This document shows positions 40,206 to 63,135 of a stretch of 64,000 nt of DNA, piece after piece (position 1 is the stretch's first letter; each line of letters starts with the position of its first letter). The stretch comes from Aliivibrio sifiae. GTDB lineage: Bacteria; Pseudomonadota; Gammaproteobacteria; Enterobacterales; Vibrionaceae. The stretch covers positions 2,428,495-2,492,494 of the forward strand of contig NZ_MSCP01000001.1 in the NCBI RefSeq assembly GCF_002954715.1, written 5' to 3'. A program made the translations under genes and the position numbers. The notes below the pieces were generated by a model. That model saw nothing but the letters and a program-made list of their open reading frames with translations, did no database searches and was not told the origin of the DNA.

Positions 40206-40215
40206 GACTTTAGCG
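40206..40215 (-). promoter_or_regulatory. Candidate CrbR motif upstream of crbR
   Basis: On the minus strand this reads CGCTAAAGTC, sharing CTAAAGTC with the sites before the symporter operon, the nucleotidyltransferase gene and acs. It lies about 70 bp before the crbR start and could mediate autoregulation. This copy is the weakest of the four. Confidence 0.4.
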
Positions 40216-40283
40216 TCTAAAAATTGCTCAAAAGACGGTTAGATGTTAATTTTATTAAATAACTTATGAGGAATATTGTAGCC

Positions 40284-40913
40284 ATGGACGATAACTACAC
40301 CATTATTATTGCGGATGATCATCCCTTATTTCGCAATGCACTTTTTCAATCAATTCACATGGCTATCAGCGGTGCGAACCTACTCGAAGCCGATTCTCTT
40401 AGTGCGTTACTTAACGTACTAGAAAAAGAGCCCGATCCTGATTTACTGCTTTTAGATTTAAAAATGCCTGGCAGTAATGGAATGTCTGGGTTAATACAAC
40501 TTCGTTCTCAGTACCCTGATTTACCTATTGTTGTTGTCTCTGCCAGTGAAGAACCTAGTATTATCTCTCAAGTTAAGAGTCATGGTGCTTTTGGTTTCAT
40601 TCCTAAATCAAGTGACATGCGTTCACTAATATCAGCACTAAATCAAATTTTATCTGGCGATTCCTATTTTCCAGAAGGCTCAATTAAGAACTCAGCGGCC
40701 TGTGATGATTTAGCGACTAAAATTACGAGCCTTACTCCGCAGCAATATAAAGTTCTCGGAATGCTTTCTGATGGATTGCTAAACAAACAAATCGCTTATG
40801 ACTTAGAAGTATCTGAAGCAACAATAAAAGCACACATGACTGCCATTTTTAGAAAGTTAGGGGTAAAAAACAGAACTCAAGCAGTTATTTTATTGCAACA
40901 GACTGAAAGTTAA
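40284..40913 (+). CDS. crbR: LuxR-type response regulator CrbR
   Basis: A 209-residue NarL/FixJ-type regulator: receiver domain with DD at 11-12 and phospho-acceptor Asp58 in LLLDLKMPG, and a C-terminal LuxR helix-turn-helix (LTPQQYKVLGML ... SEATIKAHMTAIFRKL). It fits CrbR, the partner of CrbS, which activates acs in Vibrio cholerae and Pseudomonas (there also called ErdR). Assignment rests on domain type and location in the acs/crbS cluster. I use the ATG at 40284; GAGGA lies upstream at a rather long distance, and the ATG at 40266 has no such site. Confidence 0.8.
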   Translation: MDDNYTIIIADDHPLFRNALFQSIHMAISGANLLEADSLSALLNVLEKEPDPDLLLLDLKMPGSNGMSGLIQLRSQYPDLPIVVVSASEEPSIISQVKSHGAFGFIPKSSDMRSLISALNQILSGDSYFPEGSIKNSAACDDLATKITSLTPQQYKVLGMLSDGLLNKQIAYDLEVSEATIKAHMTAIFRKLGVKNRTQAVILLQQTES

Positions 40914-40998
40914 CCTTGATATAACACACTAGCCTATAAGTTAAGGTATATTACCCGTTCATTTTATCCCTCTGTTTAACCTAACTCTGGGAGAGTTC

Positions 40999-41622
40999 AT
41001 GATAAGCATCCTCGTTACTCAATTCGTTGTTCTTTGGGCTGTTATCGATCCTATTGGTTCTGTACCTGTCTATCTTTCACAAACTCAACACCTATCTGCT
41101 AAGCAACGTAAAGTTGTTGCTTTGAAGGCCGTTGCTATTGCGACCGCCGTACTATTATTCTTTCTTGTCATTGGGCAATTATTGCTAGAAGCAATGCAAA
41201 TCCCATTACCAGCCTTTCAAGTAGCTGGTGGCTTGGTCTTGTTGATCTTCGCTTTAACTATGATTTTTGGCGAAAGCAAACCAGAGCAAGAGCAGAAATT
41301 AAGTGAAGATATTAGCCACTCTGACCTTGCAGATTTAGCCGTTTACCCTTTAGCTATCCCATCAATTGCGTCACCAGGTGCAATGATGGCAATTGTGATG
41401 TTAACTGATAATTCTAGGTATTCTTTTTTAGATCAATCAATTACCGCAGCTGTCATGATTGTTGTTCTCGTGATTACTCTATGTTTACTTCTTGGTGCAA
41501 CCTTCATTCATAAAATAATAGGAAATGTGGGGGCCGCAATAATTAGTCGTGTTATGGGGTTAATTCTGGCGGCAGTTGCGGTTAATAACTTATTACTTGG
41601 CATCAAAGATTTCTATTTTTAA
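40999..41622 (+). CDS. MarC-family membrane protein
   Basis: A 207-residue protein with six predicted membrane helices and the MarC family signatures (VVLWAVIDPIGSVPVYLS at the N-terminus and the AIPSIASPGAMM motif in the middle). Despite the name, MarC proteins are not shown to cause multiple antibiotic resistance and their function is unsettled. GGGAGAG precedes the ATG. It follows crbR by 85 bp and is closed by a terminator at 41705-41730. Confidence 0.85.
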   Translation: MISILVTQFVVLWAVIDPIGSVPVYLSQTQHLSAKQRKVVALKAVAIATAVLLFFLVIGQLLLEAMQIPLPAFQVAGGLVLLIFALTMIFGESKPEQEQKLSEDISHSDLADLAVYPLAIPSIASPGAMMAIVMLTDNSRYSFLDQSITAAVMIVVLVITLCLLLGATFIHKIIGNVGAAIISRVMGLILAAVAVNNLLLGIKDFYF

Positions 41623-41704
41623 GCATATATCTAAGGTAAATACTTTAGACCTTGGTATCAATTAACATAACGCTAACACAATAAAATCGATACATACCTC
41701 ACAT

Positions 41705-41730
41705 AAAACGCTCATATTTCGAGCGTTTTT
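41705..41730 (+). terminator. Terminator after the marC-family gene
   Basis: AAAACGCTC / GAGCGTTTT stem with a 7-nt loop followed by five T. Confidence 0.88.
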
Positions 41731-41742
41731 CTTTATCTGCTC

Positions 41743-41752
41743 GACTAAAGTT
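41743..41752 (+). promoter_or_regulatory. Candidate CrbR motif before the symporter operon
   Basis: GACTAAAGTT differs by one base from the copies before the nucleotidyltransferase gene and acs. It lies 74 bp before the DUF4212 start codon, just after the marC terminator. A shorter CTAAAGT in the opposite direction lies at 41642-41648. Confidence 0.55.
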
Positions 41753-41825
41753 GCACTGTTTTCTTCCTTTCTCACTGCTAACCTCTTTTTGGTTACATAT
41801 TATTAACATTAAAAAGGAGCCAGCT

Positions 41826-42092
41826 ATGGCGTTCGAAACAAAAGAACAAGCACAAGCCTATTGGAAGGAAAATCTAGGAATAATGGGTGGACTACTCTTC
41901 GTCTGGTTTGCTGTCTCATTTGGTGCAGGCATTTTATTTGTCGATGTTCTGGATACGATTCAAATTGGGGGCTTTAAATTAGGCTTCTGGTTTGCACAAC
42001 AAGGTTCAATTTATACCTTTGTTGCCCTGATCTTTATCTATGTGATTCGCATGAATGCACTAGATAAAAAATACAACGTACAAGAAGACTAG
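41826..42092 (+). CDS. DUF4212 small subunit of a Na+/solute symporter
   Basis: An 88-residue protein with two predicted membrane helices, matching the DUF4212 family, whose members are always encoded next to a large SSS-type symporter and are thought to be its small subunit. The family-typical FWFAQQGSIYTFVALIFIY segment forms the second helix. AGGAG lies 6 nt before the chosen ATG; the frame is open further upstream but without support. It precedes the symporter gene by 10 bp. Confidence 0.87.
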   Translation: MAFETKEQAQAYWKENLGIMGGLLFVWFAVSFGAGILFVDVLDTIQIGGFKLGFWFAQQGSIYTFVALIFIYVIRMNALDKKYNVQED

Positions 42093-42102
42093 AGGAATTA
42101 GC

Positions 42103-43806
42103 ATGGATATCCAAACTTGGACGTTTATATTAGTAGGTATCACTTTTACCCTTTATATCGGGATAGCAATATGGGCTCGCGCGGGATCAACCAGTGAGTT
42201 CTATGTTGCTGGTGGTGGGGTTCACCCTGTCGCCAATGGTATGGCAACCGCCGCAGACTGGATGTCGGCCGCATCATTTATTTCCATGGCAGGTATCATT
42301 TCTTTTGTTGGTTATGATGGTGCTGTTTATCTAATGGGTTGGACTGGCGGCTATGTTCTTTTAGCCTTATGTCTTGCTCCTTATTTACGTAAATTTGGTA
42401 AGTTTACTGTGCCAGATTTCATCGGTGAGCGTTACTATTCAAAAACAGCACGTATGGTTGCAGTGTTCTGTGCCATCTTTGTTTCTTTCACTTACGTGGC
42501 AGGGCAAATGCGTGGTGTCGGCGTAGTATTCTCTCGATTCCTTGAGGTTGATATTAACCTCGGTATCATCATTGGTATGTGTATCGTATTTTTCTATGCG
42601 GTATTAGGTGGCATGAAAGGCATCACTTATACGCAGGTCGCTCAATTCTGTGTCCTCATTTTCGCCTTCCTTGTTCCTGCCGTTTTCACTTCAATCATGA
42701 TGACAGGTAACGTATTCCCTCAAGTTGGTATGGGCTCAACCATTACTGGCTCTGAAGTTTACTTGCTGGATAAATTAGATGGGTTAACAACAGAACTTGG
42801 CTTCACACCTTATACTGACGGATCTAAGAGTATGGTTGATGTGTTTTTCATCTGTGCAGCTCTTATGGTTGGTACTGCTGGCCTGCCTCATGTAATCATT
42901 CGTTTTTTCACAGTTCCTCGCGTTAAAGATGCACGTATTTCTGCGGGCTGGGCATTACTGTTTATTTCATTCTTATACACCACAGCACCTGCGGTTGCCG
43001 CATTTGCTCGTGTGAATATGATTGAAACTATCAATGGTCCAGATAGCCTAGGGGTTGCTGCTGCTGATGCACCTAGCTGGTATAAAAACTGGGAAAGCAC
43101 CGGTCTTGTTGGTTGGGAAGATAAAAATGGCGATGGCAAGATGTTCTACTCTGGTGATGACCGAAATGAAATGGACATCAACCGAGATATCATCGTATTA
43201 GCCTCTCCTGAATTAGCAAGTTTACCAAACTGGGTTGTTGCACTATTAGCTGCCGGTGGTTTAGCCGCTGCACTATCAACGGCTGCCGGTCTATTACTGG
43301 TTATTTCTACCTCAATTTCTCACGATTTATTGAAGAAAGGGATAAAACCTAACATGACAGATAAACAAGAGTTACTCGCCGCCCGAGTAGCAGCAGCTGT
43401 CGCCATTGTTGGTGCTGGTTATCTAGGAATAAATCCACCGGGCTTTGTTGCACAGGTTGTCGCCTTCGCCTTCGGGTTAGCCGCTGCATCCTTCTTCCCT
43501 GCCATCATCTTAGGTATTTTCTATAAGAAGATGAATAAAGAAGGGGCAATTGCGGGCATGGTTTCAGGTGTGGTATTCACTACGGCTTATATTGTTTACT
43601 TCAAATTCATTAACCCAACAGCAAGCACCCCTGATAACTGGTGGTTTGGTATTAGTCCTGAAGGGATTGGTACGCTAGGTATGTGTGTGAACTTCATTGT
43701 TTCAATTGCAGTAAATAAAGTAACCGCTGAAGTACCTCAAGATGTGCAAGATATGGTTGAATCAATCCGTTACCCTAAAGGTGCGGGTGAAGCTCACGAC
43801 CACTAA
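42103..43806 (+). CDS. Na+/solute symporter large subunit (SSS family, acetate-permease-like)
   Basis: A 567-residue sodium:solute symporter with about thirteen predicted helices. The N-terminal FYVAGGGVHPVANGMATAADWMSAASFI and the RFFTVPRVKDAR region are typical of the ActP-like branch paired with DUF4212. An insertion of about 60 polar residues (near WEDKNGDGKMFYSGDDRNEMD) separates two helices and resembles a calcium-binding loop. Acetate or another short carboxylate is the likely substrate because acs, crbR and crbS surround it, but this is inference. Confidence 0.87.
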   Translation: MDIQTWTFILVGITFTLYIGIAIWARAGSTSEFYVAGGGVHPVANGMATAADWMSAASFISMAGIISFVGYDGAVYLMGWTGGYVLLALCLAPYLRKFGKFTVPDFIGERYYSKTARMVAVFCAIFVSFTYVAGQMRGVGVVFSRFLEVDINLGIIIGMCIVFFYAVLGGMKGITYTQVAQFCVLIFAFLVPAVFTSIMMTGNVFPQVGMGSTITGSEVYLLDKLDGLTTELGFTPYTDGSKSMVDVFFICAALMVGTAGLPHVIIRFFTVPRVKDARISAGWALLFISFLYTTAPAVAAFARVNMIETINGPDSLGVAAADAPSWYKNWESTGLVGWEDKNGDGKMFYSGDDRNEMDINRDIIVLASPELASLPNWVVALLAAGGLAAALSTAAGLLLVISTSISHDLLKKGIKPNMTDKQELLAARVAAAVAIVGAGYLGINPPGFVAQVVAFAFGLAAASFFPAIILGIFYKKMNKEGAIAGMVSGVVFTTAYIVYFKFINPTASTPDNWWFGISPEGIGTLGMCVNFIVSIAVNKVTAEVPQDVQDMVESIRYPKGAGEAHDH

Positions 43807-43855
43807 ACTAAGATATGAATAACAATAAATAACGTCAGAAATAACAGCTAAAATT

Positions 43856-43888
43856 AAAAGGAGTTAGTCATTACTAACTCCTTTTTTT
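43856..43888. terminator. Bidirectional terminator between the symporter and crbS
   Basis: AAGGAGTTAGT / ACTAACTCCTT stem with a CATT loop and runs of A and T on either side. Confidence 0.93.
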
Positions 43889-43905
43889 ATATTATTTATC
43901 AATAC

Positions 43906-46900
43906 CTAAGAGCTAACATGGCGATTCAACACGGCTCTTAACTTTAATGGTTTTACAGGTTTAGCAATAAATCCAAAGCCATTGCTTTTAATGCTTTCTA
44001 ATAAGTCATCGGTTTTATCTGCACTGATCATTACCCCTTCAAAACGATTCCCTAAACGCAGGCGACATTGTTGTAATACTTCTAATCCCGTCCTATCATT
44101 ATCCAATCGATAATCAGAGAAAATAACATCAGGACTCCAATCATTTTCCAAGCAATGTAAACTACTAAACAAATCAGTGGCGGTTTTCACCTCACAGCCC
44201 CAACGTTGTAATAAAGATTCCATTCCTATCAGAATATCTGGTTCATTATCCACACATAACACGCGTAGCGAACTTAATGGTAATTCTGGCTTTTGTGCTA
44301 CCGTAGGCATTTCCCTTTTTAACTCAACGCCATGATCTAATGTGACAGAAAATACCGAACCTTTATTTACCCACGAACGCAACGAGATAGTATGTCCAAG
44401 TACATGAGATATCCCACGAGCAATCGCCAATCCCAAGCCTAAACCTTGATCGGCCCGGCTCTGATCAACTCGAGTAAATTCATCAAAGATAGCTTGCTGT
44501 TTTTCTTCGGGAATGCCTATACCACTATCCCATACATCGAGACGAATTTTTCCCTCAACTCTTCTTGCCCCCAATACGACTTTTCCTTGAGGATTATATC
44601 GAAAGGCATTGGTTAGGAAGTTTTGCAGTACTCGACGTAATAATTTTGGATCAGATTCCACCACTAAATTAGAATGTATAACGTTAAAATCTATTCCTTG
44701 TTGCTTGGCTAATGCACCAAACTCCGCTTCTAAATTTGACAACATTGAGTTGAGTGAAAAACCATATACGTTTGTTTCTAACTTACCCGCTTCTAAACGA
44801 GAGATATCCAGTAAATCACCTATTAACTCTTCTGCCGCCCCTAATGCACTTTCAATATGCCCTGATATTTTCTTTGTCTCACCATCTTTAGCGACTTCGC
44901 TTAATGAAGAAGCAAACAAGCGTGCCGCATTCAGTGGTTGCATTAAATCATGACTCACCGCTGCCAGTAATCGTGTTTTTGAATGCGAGGCTTTCTCTGC
45001 ACTTTGGGTTGCGCCAACCAGGCGTTGATTTAATTTTTCTAATTCTCTGGTTCGCTCATGAACCCTAGACTCTAAAGTCTCATTAGTTTCTTTTAATGCT
45101 TTTTCTGCCTGTCTAAAAACGGTGATATCGCTAAAACTCATCACAAACCCGCCATTTGGCATCGGATTACCTTGTACCTCAATAACCTGACCATCCGCTC
45201 TTATCCGTGAAGATACATGACGCGTTCCTCGCTCTAAATGCTCTACTCGTCGTTGAACGTGTATTTCAGGATCACCCGGACCACATAAACCTTGCTCTGC
45301 ATTGTGGCGGATAACATCTGCAATTGGTCGCCCTACTTGAATCAGTCCAGAAGGAAAGGTAAATAATTCTAAATAACGCTGATTCCATGCCACTAGCTTC
45401 ATTTGCTTATCCACCACGGCAATCCCTTGACTGATATGCTCAATGGCACCTTGCAATAAACCACGGCTAAAGTCATACAACTCAGAGGCTTCATCTACAA
45501 TCGTTGCTACCTCCTCAAGCTGCATATTTCTTCCCTGTAATGCCGAGGTTAATACCAACCGAGAAGAAGACGCACCAAAGACTCCAGCGAGTACACGCTC
45601 TGTATGCCTAATTAATTGAGAACTCGCTTGTTGTTGTGGAAGTAACTCTTCACTCTGTTGCTCTGCGAACTGACGAAATGCTTTTCGTGCTCTTTTCCGC
45701 CCAACAAATCGAGAAGCCAGCATTTCAAGCTCACCAACCGTAACCCGAGTTTGATATACGCTGACATCTTCACTCTCAGGCAAAGGTGCTCCAACAAAGG
45801 CGGCGGCTTGTAAGCGCTCACTCAGTGAAGCTCTAGTAACAAAAGAAACCACAATAAATAAGACAGCATTCAAGCCTAAACTCATCATCATTCCCCAATC
45901 AGAAGCTTTTACTTCTAATTGCTGTAGCCATTCCGGCGGAGTAATTATCCATAGTAAAACGTTATTTTCAGCACTTCCTGCCAACATTTGAGTTTGGCTC
46001 ATTAAGGTAATTAACCAAACCATAAAACCTATCGCTAATCCGGCATAGACCCCTTTTTTATTGCCTTGTCGCCAATACAAGCCACCAATTAATGCAGGAG
46101 CAAATTGAGCGATAGCCGCAAATGCCAATAAACCAATTACCGATAAAGATTCTATCGAATCAAGAGCCTGATAAAACCCCCAAGCCCCAACTAATAACAA
46201 AACTATCAACAAGCGTCGAATGGTCACTAATAAATTAGAAAAATGACCAAACGTTCGAGCCGTTGTTTTTACTCGACGCAATAACAAAGGCAGAACAAGA
46301 TCATTCGAGACCATGATAGCAAGTGCAATAGTAGAAACGATCACCATACCACTTGCTGCGGAGGTGCCTCCGACAAACGCTAATAGCGCCATGTGATCTG
46401 CACCAATAGAAAGCGGAACGCTAATGATAAAACCATCACTAGCAATATCACCAGAAAGCAGAGCTTGCCCTGCCCAAGAGATAGGAAGAACAAACAACCC
46501 CATCAATAATAAATAGAGAGGAAATACCCACCGTGCTGTACGTAGATCTTGAGCTCGTTCATTTTCAACTACGATAGTATGAAACTGCCTCGGCAAACAA
46601 ATGATAGCCGCCATTGTTAACAAAGTATGAAACAATAACGTAATTAGATTTGGTGACTGATACGTCTCTTTTGCAACCGAAATAAGATCAATACTTGGCT
46701 CTGAATAAGCCAAATAAACAATGAACCCACCAACAGAAAGAAAAGCAATAAGTTTAACGATAGATTCAAACGCGACAGCCATCATTAAGCCTCGATGATG
46801 CTCTGTGGTATCAATATGTCGAGTTCCAAAAAGAATAGTAAAAATAGCAAGTGCCCCACCAACAAACCAAGAGATATGACCATCTTGATACCCTAAATCT

Positions 46901-47349
46901 TGAGCTAAATTAGGAGCAACAAGATCTAATCCCATTGTTATTCCCCTCAATTGCAACGCAATATAAGGAAGGATACCAATCACTGCGATGATAGTAATCA
47001 CACCAGCAAGACCTTGAGATTTACCGTAACGAGCCGCAATAAAATCGGCAATAGAAGTGATATGCTCACGCTTTGCAATTAAGATAATTCTGGCTAAAAA
47101 ACGCCATGCGAAGACAAAAACAAAAATAGGAGCAAGGTAGATAGGAAGGAAAGCCCACGGGTTATTAGTGGCTTGGCCCACGGTGCCATAAAAGGTCCAT
47201 GAGGTACAATAAACGGCAATAGAAAGACTGTAAATCCATGAGCGATAACGAGCTAACCACCCTTTTTGACGATCACCATACCAGGCAATTAAAAACAATA
47301 ATCCTAAATAGGCCAACGAAACTGGCACTACAATCCATCCTTGTGTCAT
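43906..47349 (-). CDS. crbS: Transporter-linked hybrid histidine kinase CrbS
   Basis: A 1147-residue fusion of an SSS-family transporter and a hybrid kinase. Residues 1-530 hold about thirteen membrane helices (including FIAARYGKSQGLAGV and AFVGGTSAASGMV). A cytosolic linker and a PAS domain (about 640-760) follow, then a coiled coil, HisKA with phospho-His in AAVSHDLMQPL near residue 800, HATPase (DSGIGIPEE, GLGLGLAIARG) and a C-terminal receiver domain with SDYRL near 1078. CrbS with CrbR controls acs and acetate use in Vibrio and Pseudomonas. AAGGA lies 7 nt before the ATG used; a GTG precedes it directly. Confidence 0.9.
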   Translation of the reverse strand: MTQGWIVVPVSLAYLGLLFLIAWYGDRQKGWLARYRSWIYSLSIAVYCTSWTFYGTVGQATNNPWAFLPIYLAPIFVFVFAWRFLARIILIAKREHITSIADFIAARYGKSQGLAGVITIIAVIGILPYIALQLRGITMGLDLVAPNLAQDLGYQDGHISWFVGGALAIFTILFGTRHIDTTEHHRGLMMAVAFESIVKLIAFLSVGGFIVYLAYSEPSIDLISVAKETYQSPNLITLLFHTLLTMAAIICLPRQFHTIVVENERAQDLRTARWVFPLYLLLMGLFVLPISWAGQALLSGDIASDGFIISVPLSIGADHMALLAFVGGTSAASGMVIVSTIALAIMVSNDLVLPLLLRRVKTTARTFGHFSNLLVTIRRLLIVLLLVGAWGFYQALDSIESLSVIGLLAFAAIAQFAPALIGGLYWRQGNKKGVYAGLAIGFMVWLITLMSQTQMLAGSAENNVLLWIITPPEWLQQLEVKASDWGMMMSLGLNAVLFIVVSFVTRASLSERLQAAAFVGAPLPESEDVSVYQTRVTVGELEMLASRFVGRKRARKAFRQFAEQQSEELLPQQQASSQLIRHTERVLAGVFGASSSRLVLTSALQGRNMQLEEVATIVDEASELYDFSRGLLQGAIEHISQGIAVVDKQMKLVAWNQRYLELFTFPSGLIQVGRPIADVIRHNAEQGLCGPGDPEIHVQRRVEHLERGTRHVSSRIRADGQVIEVQGNPMPNGGFVMSFSDITVFRQAEKALKETNETLESRVHERTRELEKLNQRLVGATQSAEKASHSKTRLLAAVSHDLMQPLNAARLFASSLSEVAKDGETKKISGHIESALGAAEELIGDLLDISRLEAGKLETNVYGFSLNSMLSNLEAEFGALAKQQGIDFNVIHSNLVVESDPKLLRRVLQNFLTNAFRYNPQGKVVLGARRVEGKIRLDVWDSGIGIPEEKQQAIFDEFTRVDQSRADQGLGLGLAIARGISHVLGHTISLRSWVNKGSVFSVTLDHGVELKREMPTVAQKPELPLSSLRVLCVDNEPDILIGMESLLQRWGCEVKTATDLFSSLHCLENDWSPDVIFSDYRLDNDRTGLEVLQQCRLRLGNRFEGVMISADKTDDLLESIKSNGFGFIAKPVKPLKLRAVLNRHVSS

Positions 47350-47383
47350 CACTCATCCTTGGTGATACCACTCTAGTGCCATA

Positions 47384-47433
47384 AAAAAACGCTAGAAGGG
47401 TACAAATACTCTGTAGCACCATTCTAGCGTTTT
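47384..47433 (-). terminator. Terminator of the HcaT-like MFS gene, upstream of crbS
   Basis: On the minus strand AACGCTAGAA pairs with TTCTAGCGTT around a 24-nt loop and is followed by seven T. It ends only about 30 bp before the crbS start, so a crbS promoter must overlap it or lie upstream of it. Confidence 0.8.
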
Positions 47434-47477
47434 ATTACTGCTTCGTTTTTATACAAGCCGACAAATGTGATTAGGGC

Positions 47478-48623
47478 CTATTTATCTTTTACTTTGTCTA
47501 ATTTAATCATCAGAGCAAAAATACCCATTGCCGCCATTATCCAGAAAATATTTGCGCCCCACGCTTCATAACCCCAACCACTTAATGTCGTCATTAAGGC
47601 GATAAACGCACCAAGAGGAATTGCATTATATAACGCTTGCAGTGGTATCATTTTGTTTTGAGGGAATTTTTGAATGTATTGGATCGCCGCTAAATGCGCC
47701 ATAGCAAAAGTCACACCATGCAATGCTTGAACAAGTACCAAGGCAAATAAATCAGTCGTAGCTGCCGTTAGGCCCCAACGAACCATTACCCCTACCGCCG
47801 CCACTTTAAATAACGTTGATATTTTCCATCCTGCAAATAATTGTTTACTGAAAGCAAATATCATTACTTCTGCTACCACACCCAGGCTCCATAAGTAACC
47901 GATAGTACTCTCTTGATACCCTGATTCTTTCCAATAAATAGAGCTAAAACTATAATACGCAGCATGACTACCTTGGATTAATGACACTAAAATAATAAAT
48001 TTTAAGACCGGCGTTTCACTCAACAGTGAAAGTAATTTTGGTCGTGTTTGATCTTCTTCAGCAACCGACACAGGCATTGGATTAGGATTACGCATGACTA
48101 AGAATAGTGCAGCTAATATCCCTGCAATCGCAGTATAAACGATCATATCAGTACCAAAACCTGATACTAGATAACCAACAACCGTAGATCCCGCAATAAA
48201 ACTCACAGAGCCCCATAAGCGCGTTCGACCATAATCCAATAAATTATTTTTTGCATAGTAATTTGTCATCGCATCTGACAAAGGAACGGCTGGCCCGCAT
48301 GACAAATTAAATAATACGGTGACAAATGCCATCCACCAGAAATTACCGCCATTAATTAAAAACAAACCAAGCGCAACTAAGGAGGCGAGCGTCAATACTC
48401 GTAATGCAGGGATCAAATATTCCACTTTATGCAAACGAGGAGTTATCACTAAATTCGCAACACAACGCGTCGCAAATCCTAAACCAATTAAGACACCGAT
48501 ATCTCCAGCTGATACCCCTTGGTCTTCAAACCACAACGCCCAAAAAGGTAAATACACGCCGTAGGCAAAAAAGAATCCACCAAAATATTGAGAGATCCAA
48601 GCAAAGGGAGATACGCGAAACAT
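47478..48623 (-). CDS. MFS transporter, HcaT/phenylpropionate-permease family
   Basis: A 381-residue major facilitator with about twelve predicted helices. It follows the pattern of E. coli HcaT (GIFLPFW at the N-terminus, LDYGRTRLWGSVSF after helix 4, QGSHAAYYSFSSIYW and GYLWSLGVVAEV in the second half). HcaT is a putative 3-phenylpropionate carrier; the substrate here is unproven, and no aromatic catabolic genes are nearby. The inner ATG is chosen by homology and a GGA 7 nt upstream; the frame stays open 30 codons further. Confidence 0.82.
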   Translation of the reverse strand: MFRVSPFAWISQYFGGFFFAYGVYLPFWALWFEDQGVSAGDIGVLIGLGFATRCVANLVITPRLHKVEYLIPALRVLTLASLVALGLFLINGGNFWWMAFVTVLFNLSCGPAVPLSDAMTNYYAKNNLLDYGRTRLWGSVSFIAGSTVVGYLVSGFGTDMIVYTAIAGILAALFLVMRNPNPMPVSVAEEDQTRPKLLSLLSETPVLKFIILVSLIQGSHAAYYSFSSIYWKESGYQESTIGYLWSLGVVAEVMIFAFSKQLFAGWKISTLFKVAAVGVMVRWGLTAATTDLFALVLVQALHGVTFAMAHLAAIQYIQKFPQNKMIPLQALYNAIPLGAFIALMTTLSGWGYEAWGANIFWIMAAMGIFALMIKLDKVKDK

Positions 48624-48765
48624 GATAATGTCCAAAAGGAAATAAAAAGAGGTGAGCATTATGGCATCGTATTGATTTATAAAAAGGGAAAACAAGACAG
48701 ATGAAAACTGCACCTTTTAAAATGTGACTTCGACTTCAATTTTTAATCAATTAATAAGAGACCTA

Positions 48766-48775
48766 GACTAAAGTC
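48766..48775 (+). promoter_or_regulatory. Candidate CrbR motif before the nucleotidyltransferase gene
   Basis: GACTAAAGTC, a GACT-N2-AGTC near-palindrome identical to the copy before acs. It lies 63 bp before the start codon at 48838. TATAGT at 48796-48801 could serve as a -10 box downstream of it. Confidence 0.55.
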
Positions 48776-48837
48776 GTCTTCATTACTTAGTGATTTATAG
48801 TGAAAATAAGATCACTAACCTAGGAAAGGATGGAGCT

Positions 48838-50670
48838 ATGCCAAGTGAACTCAATGTCTCAATTGCTCCATTTAATACACTAACGACCCTAGAAAAAGAG
48901 CAACTAACTCGTCATGTCGATATAGCCTATTTCCGAGCTGGGGATACATTACTGCATGAAGGACAAGCGTCTGATAATGTCTTCATCATTATAAAAGGCG
49001 TTGTTGAAGAGCGTTCAAATAGCAATGGAGAGATCTATGCACATTATACCCATGATGATCTTTTTGATATCCGATCTCAATTTGAAGGCTCCGCCAAACA
49101 CTCCTATCACGCAATCGAAGATACATTATGTCATCTTCTTCCTAGCTCTGTTTTTCTCTCTTTATATGAAAATAATCATGCTTTTTCTGCCTATTTCAAT
49201 AACAGCTTAGCCAAACGAAAAGCATTAATTACACAAGCACACCAACAACAAAACCTCGCCGAATTTATACTCACTAAAGTAGATAATGATACGATTCAAG
49301 AGTGCCTCGTTGTCGATGGAAATACATCATTAAAACATGTCACGCATTTACTCAAAGAACATAATGCAGACGCTTTATTTGTAGAATTGAATCAATACGA
49401 CAAACGACATCAAGCAACCAGCAACCACTTACCTTTTGGCATTATTACTCGTACCGACTTATTGCACGCCTTAATGCTTGATGGGCTTACTCCTAATCAC
49501 CCCTCGGGACCAATAGCAACTTACCCTATTGTTCATATCAATAAAGGGGACTATCTCTTTAATGCCATGACATTAATGACTCGCCATCGAGTAAAACGCG
49601 TTGCTGTTCTCGAAAATAATCAACTCATTGGCATGTTAGATATGACTCAGGTCTTGAGTCTTTTTTCTACTCACTCTCATGTTCTTACATTACGGATCGC
49701 CAGAGCACAAAGTATTGAAGAGCTTGCGATAGCCGCCAATAGCCAAACACACCTAATTGAAACCTTAATTAATAACGGTATTCGCACTCGATTTATTATG
49801 GAATTAATTTCAACCGTTAATGAACAAATTATTGAAAAAGCATTTAGTTTGGTTGTGCCTAAAAGCTTACATAATCATTGCTGCTTCATAGTCATGGGAT
49901 CCGAAGGTAGAGGTGAGCAGGTTCTAAAAACCGATCAAGACAATGCCTTAATCATTAAAGATAACGTTGACTGGCCTGATATTCATACTCTGATGAAAAA
50001 GTTAACTCAAACGCTACAACAGTTAGGTTACCCATTATGTAAAGGAAACATAATGGTAAGTAATCCTCATTGGGTAAAAACAGAGGGAGAATGGCTACGT
50101 TATATTGAAAAAATATGCACCGAACATAATGGCAATAATATGATGAATTTAGCTATATTTTCTGACTCTCAAGCGATTGCTGGTAATCATGAGTTACTTT
50201 CTCCCTTAAAAAAATGCATCGCTAACAAGCTCAAAGATAACGATCTCATCCTCAGTATTTTTACTCGTCCGGCTCTTCAATTTACTGTCCCATTAACCTT
50301 GTTTGGCAATATAAAAAATAAAAAAGAAGGCATTGATATCAAGCAAGGCGGTATTTTTCCAATTGTTCACGGGATCCGAGCATTGTCATTAGAGCAAGGG
50401 ATAGATAAAACCAACACTTTCCAACGTATTGACGAGTTACGCCTACGAAAAATACTAGAACCATCTACCGCAGATAATTTAAGTGAGGCATTAAAATTAT
50501 TTTTCAAATGGCGCTTACGCCATCAATTACAAGAGAAAACAACTCAACTCACGAATCATATTCACATAGAGCGACTTGATAGAACTGAACGGGATTTATT
50601 GCGCCACAGTCTACACATAGTTAAAAAATTCAAAGAATGGCTTGGTTATCATTATCAGATCAGGGATTAA
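48838..50670 (+). CDS. cNMP-binding/CBS/nucleotidyltransferase (DUF294) protein
   Basis: A 610-residue cytosolic protein with four parts: an N-terminal cyclic-nucleotide-binding-like domain (about 15-130), a CBS pair (about 145-285), a DUF294 nucleotidyltransferase domain and a DUF294 C-terminal helical domain. The nucleotidyltransferase motif GSEGRGEQVLKTDQDNAL (near residue 360) is of the GlnD type and has both metal-binding aspartates. The target is unknown. AAGGA lies 7 nt before the ATG at 48838. An exonuclease gene starts 5 bp after its stop, and the pair precedes acs, a conserved arrangement in gammaproteobacteria with CrbS/CrbR. Confidence 0.88.
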   Translation: MPSELNVSIAPFNTLTTLEKEQLTRHVDIAYFRAGDTLLHEGQASDNVFIIIKGVVEERSNSNGEIYAHYTHDDLFDIRSQFEGSAKHSYHAIEDTLCHLLPSSVFLSLYENNHAFSAYFNNSLAKRKALITQAHQQQNLAEFILTKVDNDTIQECLVVDGNTSLKHVTHLLKEHNADALFVELNQYDKRHQATSNHLPFGIITRTDLLHALMLDGLTPNHPSGPIATYPIVHINKGDYLFNAMTLMTRHRVKRVAVLENNQLIGMLDMTQVLSLFSTHSHVLTLRIARAQSIEELAIAANSQTHLIETLINNGIRTRFIMELISTVNEQIIEKAFSLVVPKSLHNHCCFIVMGSEGRGEQVLKTDQDNALIIKDNVDWPDIHTLMKKLTQTLQQLGYPLCKGNIMVSNPHWVKTEGEWLRYIEKICTEHNGNNMMNLAIFSDSQAIAGNHELLSPLKKCIANKLKDNDLILSIFTRPALQFTVPLTLFGNIKNKKEGIDIKQGGIFPIVHGIRALSLEQGIDKTNTFQRIDELRLRKILEPSTADNLSEALKLFFKWRLRHQLQEKTTQLTNHIHIERLDRTERDLLRHSLHIVKKFKEWLGYHYQIRD

Positions 50671-50675
50671 TAATA

Positions 50676-51317
50676 ATGAATCGACTGCAACGTCACTGGT
50701 GGCACTATAAATTACGAATTCACCCACACCGTGAGTTATTTACTCAATATTCTGGAGATGAATTAGTTTCGATTGATTGCGAAACCACGAGTCTGGATCC
50801 GAGTCATGCCGAATTGGTCTCAATTGCCGCCATCAAAATAAAAAATAATAAAGTAATCACAAGCCAGAGCATACATTTAAAATTAAGGCCTCCACAGAAC
50901 CTTACTTCTGATTCAATAAAAATACATCAACTAAGGCACCAAGATTTAACTCATGGGATATCAGAAAAAGAGGCCCTTGAGCAACTCATTCAATTTATTG
51001 GACGCCGCCCAATTGTTGGGTACCACATTCATTATGATAAGAAGATTTTAGATCGCGTCAGTCTACGCCACTTCAGACACCCCCTACCAAACTCACTCAT
51101 TGAAGTGAGCCACCTTTATCATCATAAATTAGAAAGATTATTACCTAATGCATATTACGATTTAAGCATTGAAGCTATTTCTCGACATTTAGACCTGCCA
51201 CAGGCCGAACGCCATGATGCTCTTGAAGATGCCATTGCCGCTGCTCTTATTTATGTGCGCTTAACTTATGGAGATTTCCCTGAACTACCTAAAATAAGAA
51301 ATGCCCATAGTTACTGA
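50676..51317 (+). CDS. DnaQ-like 3'-5' exonuclease
   Basis: A 213-residue DEDDh exonuclease. The catalytic residues are visible: D-x-E in SIDCETTSLDP, the Exo II aspartate in HIHYDKKIL, and His/Asp in RHDALEDA. It resembles the epsilon subunit of DNA polymerase III but the true substrate is unknown. GGG lies about 8 nt before the ATG. It forms an operon with the DUF294 protein, suggesting that the two act on the same process, perhaps adding and removing nucleotides. Confidence 0.87.
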   Translation: MNRLQRHWWHYKLRIHPHRELFTQYSGDELVSIDCETTSLDPSHAELVSIAAIKIKNNKVITSQSIHLKLRPPQNLTSDSIKIHQLRHQDLTHGISEKEALEQLIQFIGRRPIVGYHIHYDKKILDRVSLRHFRHPLPNSLIEVSHLYHHKLERLLPNAYYDLSIEAISRHLDLPQAERHDALEDAIAAALIYVRLTYGDFPELPKIRNAHSY

Positions 51318-51376
51318 TCTGTCTCTCAAAAACCAACTCTTATCTGTTCAAAAATTCAGTAAACCCTTCTTTCTCT

Positions 51377-51386
51377 GACTAAAGTC
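51377..51386 (+). promoter_or_regulatory. Candidate CrbR motif upstream of acs
   Basis: GACTAAAGTC, identical to the copy at 48766-48775. It lies 136 bp before the acs start codon in a 204-bp intergenic region. CrbR is known to activate acs in Vibrio and Pseudomonas, so a binding site is expected here. Confidence 0.6.
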
Positions 51387-51521
51387 TAATTGTTGAAAAC
51401 GCATTTCTAGCAGAAAGTAATATCAACCCTACTAATAAAAAAGCAGAGCCAATGAAGGCGCTGCCATAAATCCAGCGACATACTAATCTGGATATTTGCT
51501 GTATTCACAAGGAGAACCAAC

Positions 51522-53471
51522 ATGAGTGACATTCACGTATACCCAGTCAATCAAGACATCGCAAAACATGCACATGCTGATGAAGATAAATACCGTGAAA
51601 TGTACCAGCAATCCGTTATTAACCCTGAGGGGTTTTGGCGTGAGCATGGACAAATAGTCGATTGGATGACTCCTTACACTAAAGTAAAAAATACCTCTTT
51701 TGATACTGGTCACGTAGACATTAAATGGTTTGAAGATGGCGAGTTAAATGTCTCAGCAAACTGTATTGATCGCCACCTTGCTACTCGTGGTGACGACGTT
51801 GCGATCATCTGGGAGGGCGATGATCCTCAAGATGATGCCTCAATTACATTCAACGAGCTTCACGAACAAGTATGTAAATTCTCAAACGCACTAAAAAGCC
51901 AAGGGGTACGTAAAGGTGATGTGGTCTGTATTTATATGCCAATGGTCGCTGAAGCTGCTGTAGCTATGCTTGCTTGTACTCGTATTGGTGCAGTTCACAC
52001 GGTTGTTTTTGGTGGTTTCTCTCCAGAAGCACTAGCGGGTCGCATTGTCGATTCAGATGCAAAAGTAGTGATCACCGCTGACGAAGGCGTTCGTGGTGGG
52101 CGTACCGTCCCTCTAAAGAAAAACGTCGATGATGCATTAAATAATCCTGAAGTAACCACCATTGAAAAAGTGGTTGTATTCCAACGTACAGGTAATGATG
52201 TAGATTGGAATGAAGGACGCGATGTATGGTGGCATGAAGCGACCGCTGTTGCTTCTGCACATTGTGCACCTGAAGCAATGAATGCTGAAGATCCTCTTTT
52301 CATTCTTTACACCTCCGGCTCAACAGGTAAACCTAAAGGCGTATTACACACCACTGGCGGCTACCTTGTTTATGCAGCAATGACCTTTAAATATATTTTT
52401 GATTACCAAGAAGGCGAAGTGTTTTGGTGTACTGCCGATGTAGGTTGGATAACAGGTCATACTTATCTAATTTATGGGCCGCTGGCCAATGGAGCAAAAA
52501 CCATTTTATTTGAAGGTGTGCCAAATTACCCAAGCACAAGCCGCATGAGCGAAGTGGTGGATAAGCATAATGTAAATATTCTTTATACTGCACCAACGGC
52601 TATCCGAGCATTAATGGCTCAAGGCAATGATGCTATTGAAGGAACATCAAGAACATCATTACGAGTCATGGGTTCTGTTGGTGAGCCAATTAACCCTGAA
52701 GCATGGGAATGGTATTACAACACCATTGGTGATGCCCGTTGCCCTATCGTTGATACGTGGTGGCAAACGGAAACGGGCGGGATTTTAATCTCTCCACTTC
52801 CTGGGGCAACCGCATTGAAACCAGGTTCTGCAACTCGCCCTTTCTTTGGTGTTCAACCAGCTTTGGTTGATAACATGGGCAACCTTATTGAAGGCGCTGC
52901 CGATGGAAACTTAGTTATTACTGATTCTTGGCCGGGACAAATGCGTACCATTTATGGTGACCACGAACGTTTTGAACAAACCTATTTCTCAACCTTTAAA
53001 GGCATGTATTTCACGAGTGATGGCGCTAGACGTGATGAAGATGGTTATTATTGGATTACTGGACGTGTCGATGATGTATTAAATGTATCAGGTCACCGCA
53101 TGGGTACGGCTGAAGTAGAATCTGCTCTTGTTGCTTTTGATAAAATTGCCGAAGCGGCCATTGTCGGTGTTCCACACGATATTAAAGGCCAAGCTATTTA
53201 CGCATACATAACATTAAACTCAGGTGAATACCCAAGTGCTGAATTACATAAAGAAGTAAAAGATTGGGTAAGAAAAGAAATTGGTCCTATCGCTACACCG
53301 GATTTCTTGCATTGGACTGATTCACTACCCAAAACACGTTCAGGTAAAATTATGCGTCGTATTCTTCGAAAAATCGCAACAGGCGACACCTCTAATTTAG
53401 GTGATACTTCTACACTTGCAGACCCTAGTGTGGTCGATAAACTCATTGAAGAGCAAAGAAAAATTGCTTAG
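51522..53471 (+). CDS. acs: Acetyl-CoA synthetase
   Basis: Acs activates acetate to acetyl-CoA through acetyl-AMP and is the high-affinity route of acetate assimilation, the second phase of the acetate switch. The 649-residue protein has the P-loop [11 protein letters not shown] near residue 265, the adenylation motif WWQTETGG, and the regulatory lysine Lys609 in [11 protein letters not shown], which in other bacteria is acetylated to inactivate the enzyme. AAGGAG lies 8 nt before the ATG. It is probably controlled by CrbS/CrbR. Confidence 0.97.
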
Positions 53472-61842: not shown

Positions 61843-63135
61843 ATGAATGTATTGATTATTGGTGCCGGCGGTCGTGAGCACGCACTAGGTTGGAAAGCAG
61901 CACAAAACCCAAACGTTGAAACGGTATTTATCGCTCCAGGTAATGCAGGTACAGCGCTTGAACCAAAATTAGAAAACGTGGCGATTGATGTTGAAGACAT
62001 TACTGCTCTTGTTGCGTTTGCTAAAGAAAAAGAAATTGAACTGACTATTGTTGGTCCTGAAGGTCCATTAGTAATTGGTGTGGTTGATGCGTTCCGTGAA
62101 GCGGGATTACCTATTTTTGGCCCAACAAAAGCAGCAGCACAACTGGAAGGTTCTAAAGCGTTTACTAAAGACTTCTTAGCTCGCCATGATATCCCAACAG
62201 GTTACTACGCTAACTTCACTGAAATTGAGCCCGCATTAGCTTATGTCCGTGAACAAGGTGCACCGATTGTCGTTAAAGCCGATGGCCTTGCTGCGGGTAA
62301 AGGCGTTATTGTTGCAATGACACTTGAAGAAGCTGAAGATGCGATCAAAGACATGCTTTCTGGTAACGTTTTTGGTGATGCTGGTAGCCGTGTCGTTATC
62401 GAAGAATTTCTGGAAGGCGAAGAAGCAAGCTTTATCGTTATGGTTGATGGCGCAAGCGTTCTACCAATGGCGACTAGCCAAGATCATAAGCGTGTAGGCG
62501 ATAAAGATACTGGCCCTAACACGGGTGGAATGGGTGCATATTCTCCAGCGCCTGTTGTAACTCCTGAAATTCATAATCGTATTCTAGAAGAAGTTATCTA
62601 CCCTACAGTTCGCGGTATGGATGCTGAAGGCGCACCTTATACTGGCTTCCTATATGCAGGTTTGATGATTGATGCTGATGGCACTCCAAAAGTAATCGAA
62701 TATAACTGTCGCTTTGGTGACCCAGAAACACAGCCGATTATGATGCGCATGGAATCAGATCTTGTTGAATTATGCTTAATGGCTATCGACGAAAAATTAG
62801 ATGAAGCAGAATCTAAGTGGGATCCACGAGCTTCTATCGGTGTTGTTCTCGCAGCCGGCGGTTACCCTGGCGATTATGCAAAAGGTGATGTAATTGCATT
62901 ACCAACAGCGGAAGTAGAAGGTCAAAAGATTTTCCATGCAGGAACAACAAACAACGCTACTGGAGAAGTAATAACTAACGGTGGACGTGTACTTTGTGCT
63001 ACTGCACTCGGTAATACCGTCTCTGAAGCCCAAGAGCGTGCGTATGAGCTAACTAAACAAGTTAGCTGGAATGGAATGTTTCATCGTAACGACATCGGTT
63101 ACCGTGCCATTGCTCGTGAATTAGAAAGTAAATAA
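61843..63135 (+). CDS. purD: Phosphoribosylamine--glycine ligase
   Basis: PurD joins glycine to phosphoribosylamine, the second step of purine synthesis. The 430-residue ATP-grasp protein shows the N-terminal IIGAGGREHALGWKA, the ADGLAAGKGVIVA loop and the TGGMGAYSPAPV and EYNCRFGDPETQ motifs. The N-, A-, B- and C-domains are complete. It probably shares the purH promoter, although a structured 327-bp spacer separates the two. A bidirectional terminator follows. Confidence 0.97.
   Translation: MNVLIIGAGGREHALGWKAAQNPNVETVFIAPGNAGTALEPKLENVAIDVEDITALVAFAKEKEIELTIVGPEGPLVIGVVDAFREAGLPIFGPTKAAAQLEGSKAFTKDFLARHDIPTGYYANFTEIEPALAYVREQGAPIVVKADGLAAGKGVIVAMTLEEAEDAIKDMLSGNVFGDAGSRVVIEEFLEGEEASFIVMVDGASVLPMATSQDHKRVGDKDTGPNTGGMGAYSPAPVVTPEIHNRILEEVIYPTVRGMDAEGAPYTGFLYAGLMIDADGTPKVIEYNCRFGDPETQPIMMRMESDLVELCLMAIDEKLDEAESKWDPRASIGVVLAAGGYPGDYAKGDVIALPTAEVEGQKIFHAGTTNNATGEVITNGGRVLCATALGNTVSEAQERAYELTKQVSWNGMFHRNDIGYRAIARELESK

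Follow-up and report, generated by a model that had tools for sequence, protein, structure and literature searches.

The near-palindrome before acs and two neighbouring operons of Aliivibrio sifiae matches the ACTU operator of CrbR and probably extends to two small-protein genes

The response regulator CrbR has a known operator, the ACTU motif, described as an imperfect inverted repeat of the form KAC-N4-GTM (Sepulveda and Lupas 2017, PMC5715377). Four mutations of the motif abolish the activity of the Pseudomonas fluorescens acs promoter, where the site lies at -52 to -36 from the mapped start, immediately before the promoter; in Escherichia coli, expression of CrbR activates the acs promoter only if the motif is intact; and the motif is present in 91 of 112 promoters. 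In Table 3 of the same article, V. fischeri MJ11 is scored positive for acs, actP and pflu5625 (a DUF294-type gene), and scpC (pflu0110) is scored as not found in the Vibrio species listed. The MxtR/ErdR pair of Pseudomonas (PMC8402216, PMC9927547, PMC9927353) is an orthologous two-component system to CrbS/CrbR; ErdR (CrbR) of P. putida gives gel shifts at the actP-I, PP_0354 and scpC promoters (PMC8402216), and ErdR of P. aeruginosa binds 13 of 15 promoters (PMC9927353). The CrbS/R system of V. cholerae and others (Jacob 2017, PMC5436829) is the same two-component system with acs as its main target, and term searches of the main text of that paper returned no binding site, palindrome, consensus or autoregulation. 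Here we analyse a stretch of 64,000 nucleotides from Aliivibrio sifiae (contig NZ_MSCP01000001.1, positions 2,428,495 to 2,492,494 of the forward strand; hereafter the window), and conclude with high confidence that the near-palindrome found before acs, a DUF294/exonuclease operon and a DUF4212/symporter (actP) operon is the ACTU motif, the operator of CrbR, and that two small-protein genes elsewhere in the genome are probably also under CrbR control.

An earlier note on this DNA had listed four strings as a shared candidate CrbR operator, and all four are present on the plus strand, GACTAAAGTC at 48766-48775 and again at 51377-51386, GACTAAAGTT at 41743-41752 and GACTTTAGCG at 40206-40215. 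All are intergenic, as had been claimed; the distance to the start codon is 50 to 145 bp, against the 60-140 bp given previously. The proposal of a CrbR operator is right for acs, DUF294 and the DUF4212/symporter operon and is not new, as it coincides with the published ACTU motif, whereas the fourth string, before crbR, belongs to a different motif that is taken up below. The complete site before acs, TCTGACTAAAGTCTAA (51374..51389, plus strand), is followed immediately by TTG, that of the DUF294/exonuclease operon is CTAGACTAAAGTCGTC (48763..48778, plus strand), which also lies ∼50 bp upstream of a divergent MFS gene, and that of the DUF4212/actP operon is CTCGACTAAAGTTGCA (41740..41755, plus strand), with a single mismatch in the right half. 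These sites share with the ACTU motif the inverted repeat, the target genes (acs, actP and pflu5625) and the location just upstream of the promoter, and are further instances of the known operator.

The conservation sample consisted of the crbS block from 60 hand-picked genomes out of 145 CrbS-positive Vibrionaceae, plus the window, with CrbS-negative genomes lying outside the sample. A contig scan with CrbS had given nine Aliivibrio loci and one distant match, and a genome search was used instead. Orthologues were located in each block and 350 bp upstream of each start were examined, so that denominators are the promoters found. A matrix built on the four P. fluorescens sites, with a threshold at 99% of the null, was exceeded in 1/60 acs, 15/54 DUF4212 and 45/57 DUF294 promoters; it is too strict for acs and misses much of DUF4212, and exact conserved cores, picked after inspection of the sequences, were therefore counted instead. 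The core CTAAAGTCTAATTG is retained in 59/60 acs promoters, GAC[TC]AAAGTC in 56/57 DUF294 promoters, and GAC[TC]AAAGTT in all 54 DUF4212 promoters. In shuffled sequences these cores occur at 0-0.1%, and in each of eight control genes they were seen in 0 or 1 promoters. The strict dyad KACYWWRGTM fits 57/57 DUF294 promoters, 14/60 acs promoters (that of the window among them) and 12/54 DUF4212 promoters, its rarity at the last two being due to the weak left half at acs and to the GTT ending at DUF4212.

A second, distal ACTU-like site, TTAGACCTTGGTATCA, precedes DUF4212 at 41645..41660 (plus strand), ∼95 bp upstream of the proximal one, and scores 13.8 on the matrix, higher than the proximal site. 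Its core TTA[GT]AC[CT]TT is found in 52/54 promoters, with the G form in 48/54 (0.4% in shuffles for the G form), and the site is present also in stretches in which no marC was located (e.g. L065). Neither this distal site nor the two small-protein genes was found in the sections of PMC5715377 examined.

The statistical test that the earlier note had called for gave a divided answer, in that the bare 10-mer is not enriched, whereas its sequence is conserved in place at the three promoters. With one mismatch or fewer allowed, the window holds five matches against 3.55 expected, and 28 of 100 shuffles reach five; exact matches in the A. sifiae genome number 10, compared with 19 for the reversed pattern. 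Such counts, none above expectation, would suit an explanation in which a short, A+T-rich 10-mer has simply recurred by chance. As the bare count is uninformative, conservation is the test needed, and here 169/171 promoters of the three genes keep the core at constant spacing, and the motif is a published one. Chance is thereby refuted for acs, DUF294 and DUF4212, and we give it next to no credence as an account of the shared strings. Seven of the ten exact genomic 10-mers lie inside open reading frames (ORFs) and were set aside, and a similar string in the window, GACTTTAGTT (61745; upstream of the purD of the earlier note, the ORF at 61843), has no GTC half and was dropped.

The arrangement of the promoters points in the same direction as the published geometry. 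Spacing was counted from the first base of the 16-mer site to the start of an xAxxxT hexamer, which stands at position 40 in 59/59 acs and 54/54 DUF4212 promoters and in 35/56 DUF294 promoters, a further 21/56 of the latter having it at 39. No such hexamer occurs at positions 34-39 in the acs (59) or DUF4212 (54) promoters; further on it recurs in some acs promoters, at 41 in 8/59 and at 45 in 19/59. In the window, the predicted -10-like hexamer of acs is GAAAGT (51413..51418, plus strand; constant site spacing in 59/59 promoters), which places the predicted transcription start near 51425, and the -10-like element of DUF4212 reads TGC-TAACCT at 41776-41784. If the hexamer is the -10 element, the centre of the site would lie near -43 of these predicted starts, close to the -52 to -36 of P. 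fluorescens acs. The constant spacing is consistent with an activator that works at the -35 region.

A mechanism may be outlined on this basis. CrbS would phosphorylate CrbR once the cell turns to acetate; a CrbR dimer would then occupy GAC-N4-GTC, which adjoins a weak -35 region on the upstream side, and bound CrbR could contact RNA polymerase at -35, so that the genes for acetate uptake and activation are switched on. CrbR would probably also control the genes for a 53-aa protein, encoded beside satP, and a 43-aa hydrophobic protein, both outside the window. For A. sifiae, we infer both the binding of CrbR and the direction of control from sequence, the CrbR dependence, motif mutations and gel shifts being those of the Pseudomonas literature. 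For the operator itself, the Vibrionaceae add a constant promoter geometry and, as a natural test, the decay of sites on loss of CrbR.

A scan of the genome for symmetric 16-mers gave five sites (10 strand matches, against 28 for the reversed control) and, falling below its control, is a lead rather than a test. One of these, the ACTU site TTAGACTTTGGTCGTA (G000:C1:1361204-1361219), has its centre 78 bp upstream of a plus-strand ORF of 53 codons (L183:1587-1748, equal to G000:C1:1361290-1361448 plus stop). This ORF, of 53-57 codons among its homologues, converges with satP, which encodes an acetate uptake transporter (NF038013), and diverges from htpX, with which it shares the intergenic region. 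With small-ORF matches counted at E <= 0.01, a threshold at which some absences may be misses, it is matched in 146/150 Vibrionaceae genomes. The protein has no Pfam or NCBIfam family above cut-off; folding predicts three helices (pTM 0.45), and a Protein Data Bank search gave no match at E <= 0.001, so that neither hints at a function. The upstream region was examined in 50 of the 146 genomes with the ORF (for one of the two matches in G001), and the site is present in all 46 CrbS-positive Vibrionaceae among them, with TTG immediately after it in 43. The spacing count used an anchoring pattern to which 28 of 30 loci conformed; 22 of these 28 have the -10-like hexamer at position 40 and 7 have it at 39, and it is also seen at 34 in 10 and at 35 in 8. 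Outside the Vibrionaceae, where 32 loci were examined, the site occurs in family f25 (12/12 loci), f11 (2/2) and f13 (4/4, with a weak left half), and in weak form in f10-g59 (2/2) and g65 (1/1).

Two of the symmetric 16-mers (L182 and L185) lie inside ORFs and were set aside. A further symmetric site, TAATACTTTGGTATTA (L181:1501-1516; G000:C1:730584-730599), is intergenic, with a DUF3360 gene on one side and the gene of an ABC transporter ATPase on the other.

Among the CrbR-type palindromes found in the genome the most symmetric, TTAGACTAAAGTCTAA (G000:C1:2346016-2346031), precedes the second small gene and contains the only intergenic copy, outside the window, of the ten exact 10-mers. Its centre lies 107 bp upstream of a 43-codon ORF that has GAGG as ribosome site; this conserved hydrophobic ORF of 42-43 codons is on the minus strand (L005:1267-1398, equal to G000:C1:2345788-2345916). 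A match to this ORF is found in 104/150 Vibrionaceae genomes; the protein, probably a single-pass membrane protein, matches nothing in Pfam, and nothing in NCBIfam at E <= 0.01, the best hit short of that threshold having E 0.31. The upstream region was examined in 70 of the 104 genomes (that of A. sifiae included) and in a further 13 loci from outside the Vibrionaceae. Of the 70, 55 carry a KACYWWRGTM dyad in the 400 bp before the ORF (1.9% in shuffles), one of which (L157) has a low matrix score and may be chance, and the perfect 16-mer is present in 42. The perfect palindrome TTAGACTWWAGTCTAA has 59 occurrences in 57/150 genomes, of which 54 are no more than 500 bp from the 43-aa ORF, and the reversed control matches in 3 genomes. 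Among homologues outside the Vibrionaceae, the site is present in f13 (4/4), nearly complete in f10-g59 (2/2) and absent in f25 (0/7).

On this evidence it is probable that the CrbR switch of the Vibrionaceae has two further core targets, the 53-57 aa and the 42-43 aa proteins, which could tune SatP, ActP or CrbS. The tuning role is drawn by analogy from other small proteins that adjust transporters and enzymes, CrbS being a transporter-like sensor. These two overlooked genes, inferred from sequence alone, are the new part of the analysis, and through them the output of the acetate switch can be tested directly in a harmless laboratory symbiont. Among the titles and abstract openings of open-licence PMC articles, no CrbR/ErdR paper was found that names either small ORF as a target, which leaves novelty unproven.

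The genomes that have lost the system bear on which factor uses the sites. Five of the 150 Vibrionaceae genomes have no CrbS match and at best distant NarL relatives of CrbR (at most 32% identity). The site before the 53-aa ORF is intact in 0/4 of these, with none in G001, G004 and G021 and a remnant in G002, where the GTC half is changed and the score is still 12.0 on the matrix. The motif is present before none of three acs homologues in the CrbR-lacking genomes, these homologues having only 48-52% identity and two of them being interrupted. The small numbers concern non-independent genomes; nevertheless, they point to CrbR rather than another factor.

Several observations, in addition to the 10-mer counts given above, weigh against this reading of the sites as CrbR operators. 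Unlike the ACTU motif, the left half at Vibrio acs is mostly TCC, and the full GAC left half is found in only 12/60 acs promoters, most Vibrio ones being weak. P. putida acsA-I has no site and gives no gel shift (PMC8402216), most tested targets rise in an erdR mutant of P. aeruginosa (PMC9927353), and acs of V. fischeri is also under AinS control (PMC5436829). The P. aeruginosa result suggests repression of these targets, so that CrbR may activate some promoters and repress others. The site before the 53-aa ORF is absent from the loci examined in f10-g22 (0/5, from seven genomes with a match) and f2 (0/6, from eleven). A CrbR match at E <= 1e-30 was obtained in 20/21 genomes tested outside the Vibrionaceae, including 3/3 of f10-g22 and 4/5 of f2; both groups thus carry CrbR yet are without the site, which argues against a universal link between CrbR and the 53-aa gene. 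For the 43-aa gene, 15/70 loci are without the dyad, including the six most diverged homologues, and the distance from palindrome to ORF varies over ∼50-340 bp. The likely -10 element also differs between Aliivibrio and Vibrio, for which reason activation of the 43-aa gene is not claimed, and its spacing is unlike that of the ACTU promoters. It is this difference in spacing, together with the several NarL-type relatives present in these genomes, that would favour another NarL/LuxR-type regulator with a similar box as the user of some sites, most likely the 43-aa one. The palindrome before the 43-aa gene nevertheless fits the published ACTU consensus, and neither the 43-aa ORF nor the perfect palindrome was detected in any of the five CrbR-lacking genomes, a weak argument since 93/150 genomes are without the perfect palindrome. 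We consider such a second regulator unlikely, and CrbR remains the preferred user of these sites.

The string before crbR differs from the three operators. The earlier note took GACTTTAGCG at 40206-40215 (plus strand), which reads CGCTAAAGTC on the minus strand, as an inverted variant of the operator; comparison of crbR promoters places it in a conserved element of another kind without the ACTU dyad, KACYWWRGTM being found in 0/53 of them. Autoregulation of crbR through this string would draw on the element AGACTTT(T)A[AG][CT]G, conserved in 25/53 crbR promoters with TTG after it at constant distance, which keeps a GAC half, and on the four-site matrix, whose 99% null is exceeded in 4/53. A loose GAC-N4-GTC is also seen in 8/53 crbR promoters, at scattered positions (4.6% expected per promoter), four of them being GACAAAAGTC near -100. 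The partner half of the element is, however, never GTC (0/25), its length varies by one base, and in several other genera a different conserved block stands at the position of the string. We therefore regard autoregulation through the string at 40206 as improbable, the string being better described as a different motif. As a further feature, 13/53 of these promoters have AAAAGT paired with an inverted GACTTT ∼11 bp away (0.1% in shuffles; e.g. L061-L069, L078 and L082-L084), which also speaks for some form of autoregulation; none of the Aliivibrio crbR promoters showed the AAAAGT partner, which counts against it there. Outside Aliivibrio, half-sites in another arrangement may conceivably control crbR.

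The crbS and crbR genes sit in the same block as the target genes. crbR (40284..40913, plus strand; second possible start codon at 40266) encodes a response regulator with a LuxR-type DNA-binding domain (Pfam Response_reg and GerE). It is followed by the DUF4212 gene and the SSF symporter gene of the actP operon (41826..43806, plus strand; Pfam DUF4212 and SSF) and by crbS (43906..47352, minus strand), a hybrid histidine kinase gene (Pfam PAS_7, HisKA, HATPase_c and Response_reg) whose product is matched in 145/150 Vibrionaceae genomes. Beyond the MFS gene, which is divergent from them (Pfam), lie the cNMP-CBS-DUF294 gene and the exonuclease gene (48838..51317, plus strand; Pfam), the former equated with PFLU5625/pp_0354 by description alone, without alignment, and then acs, the acetyl-CoA synthetase gene (51522..53471, plus strand; Pfam ACAS_N, AMP-binding and AMP-binding_C). 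Outside Aliivibrio, two versions of the actP/DUF4212 pair occur at this locus, with ∼88-93% or ∼63-65% identity to the ActP of the window, which suggests that one of two copies was replaced or lost.

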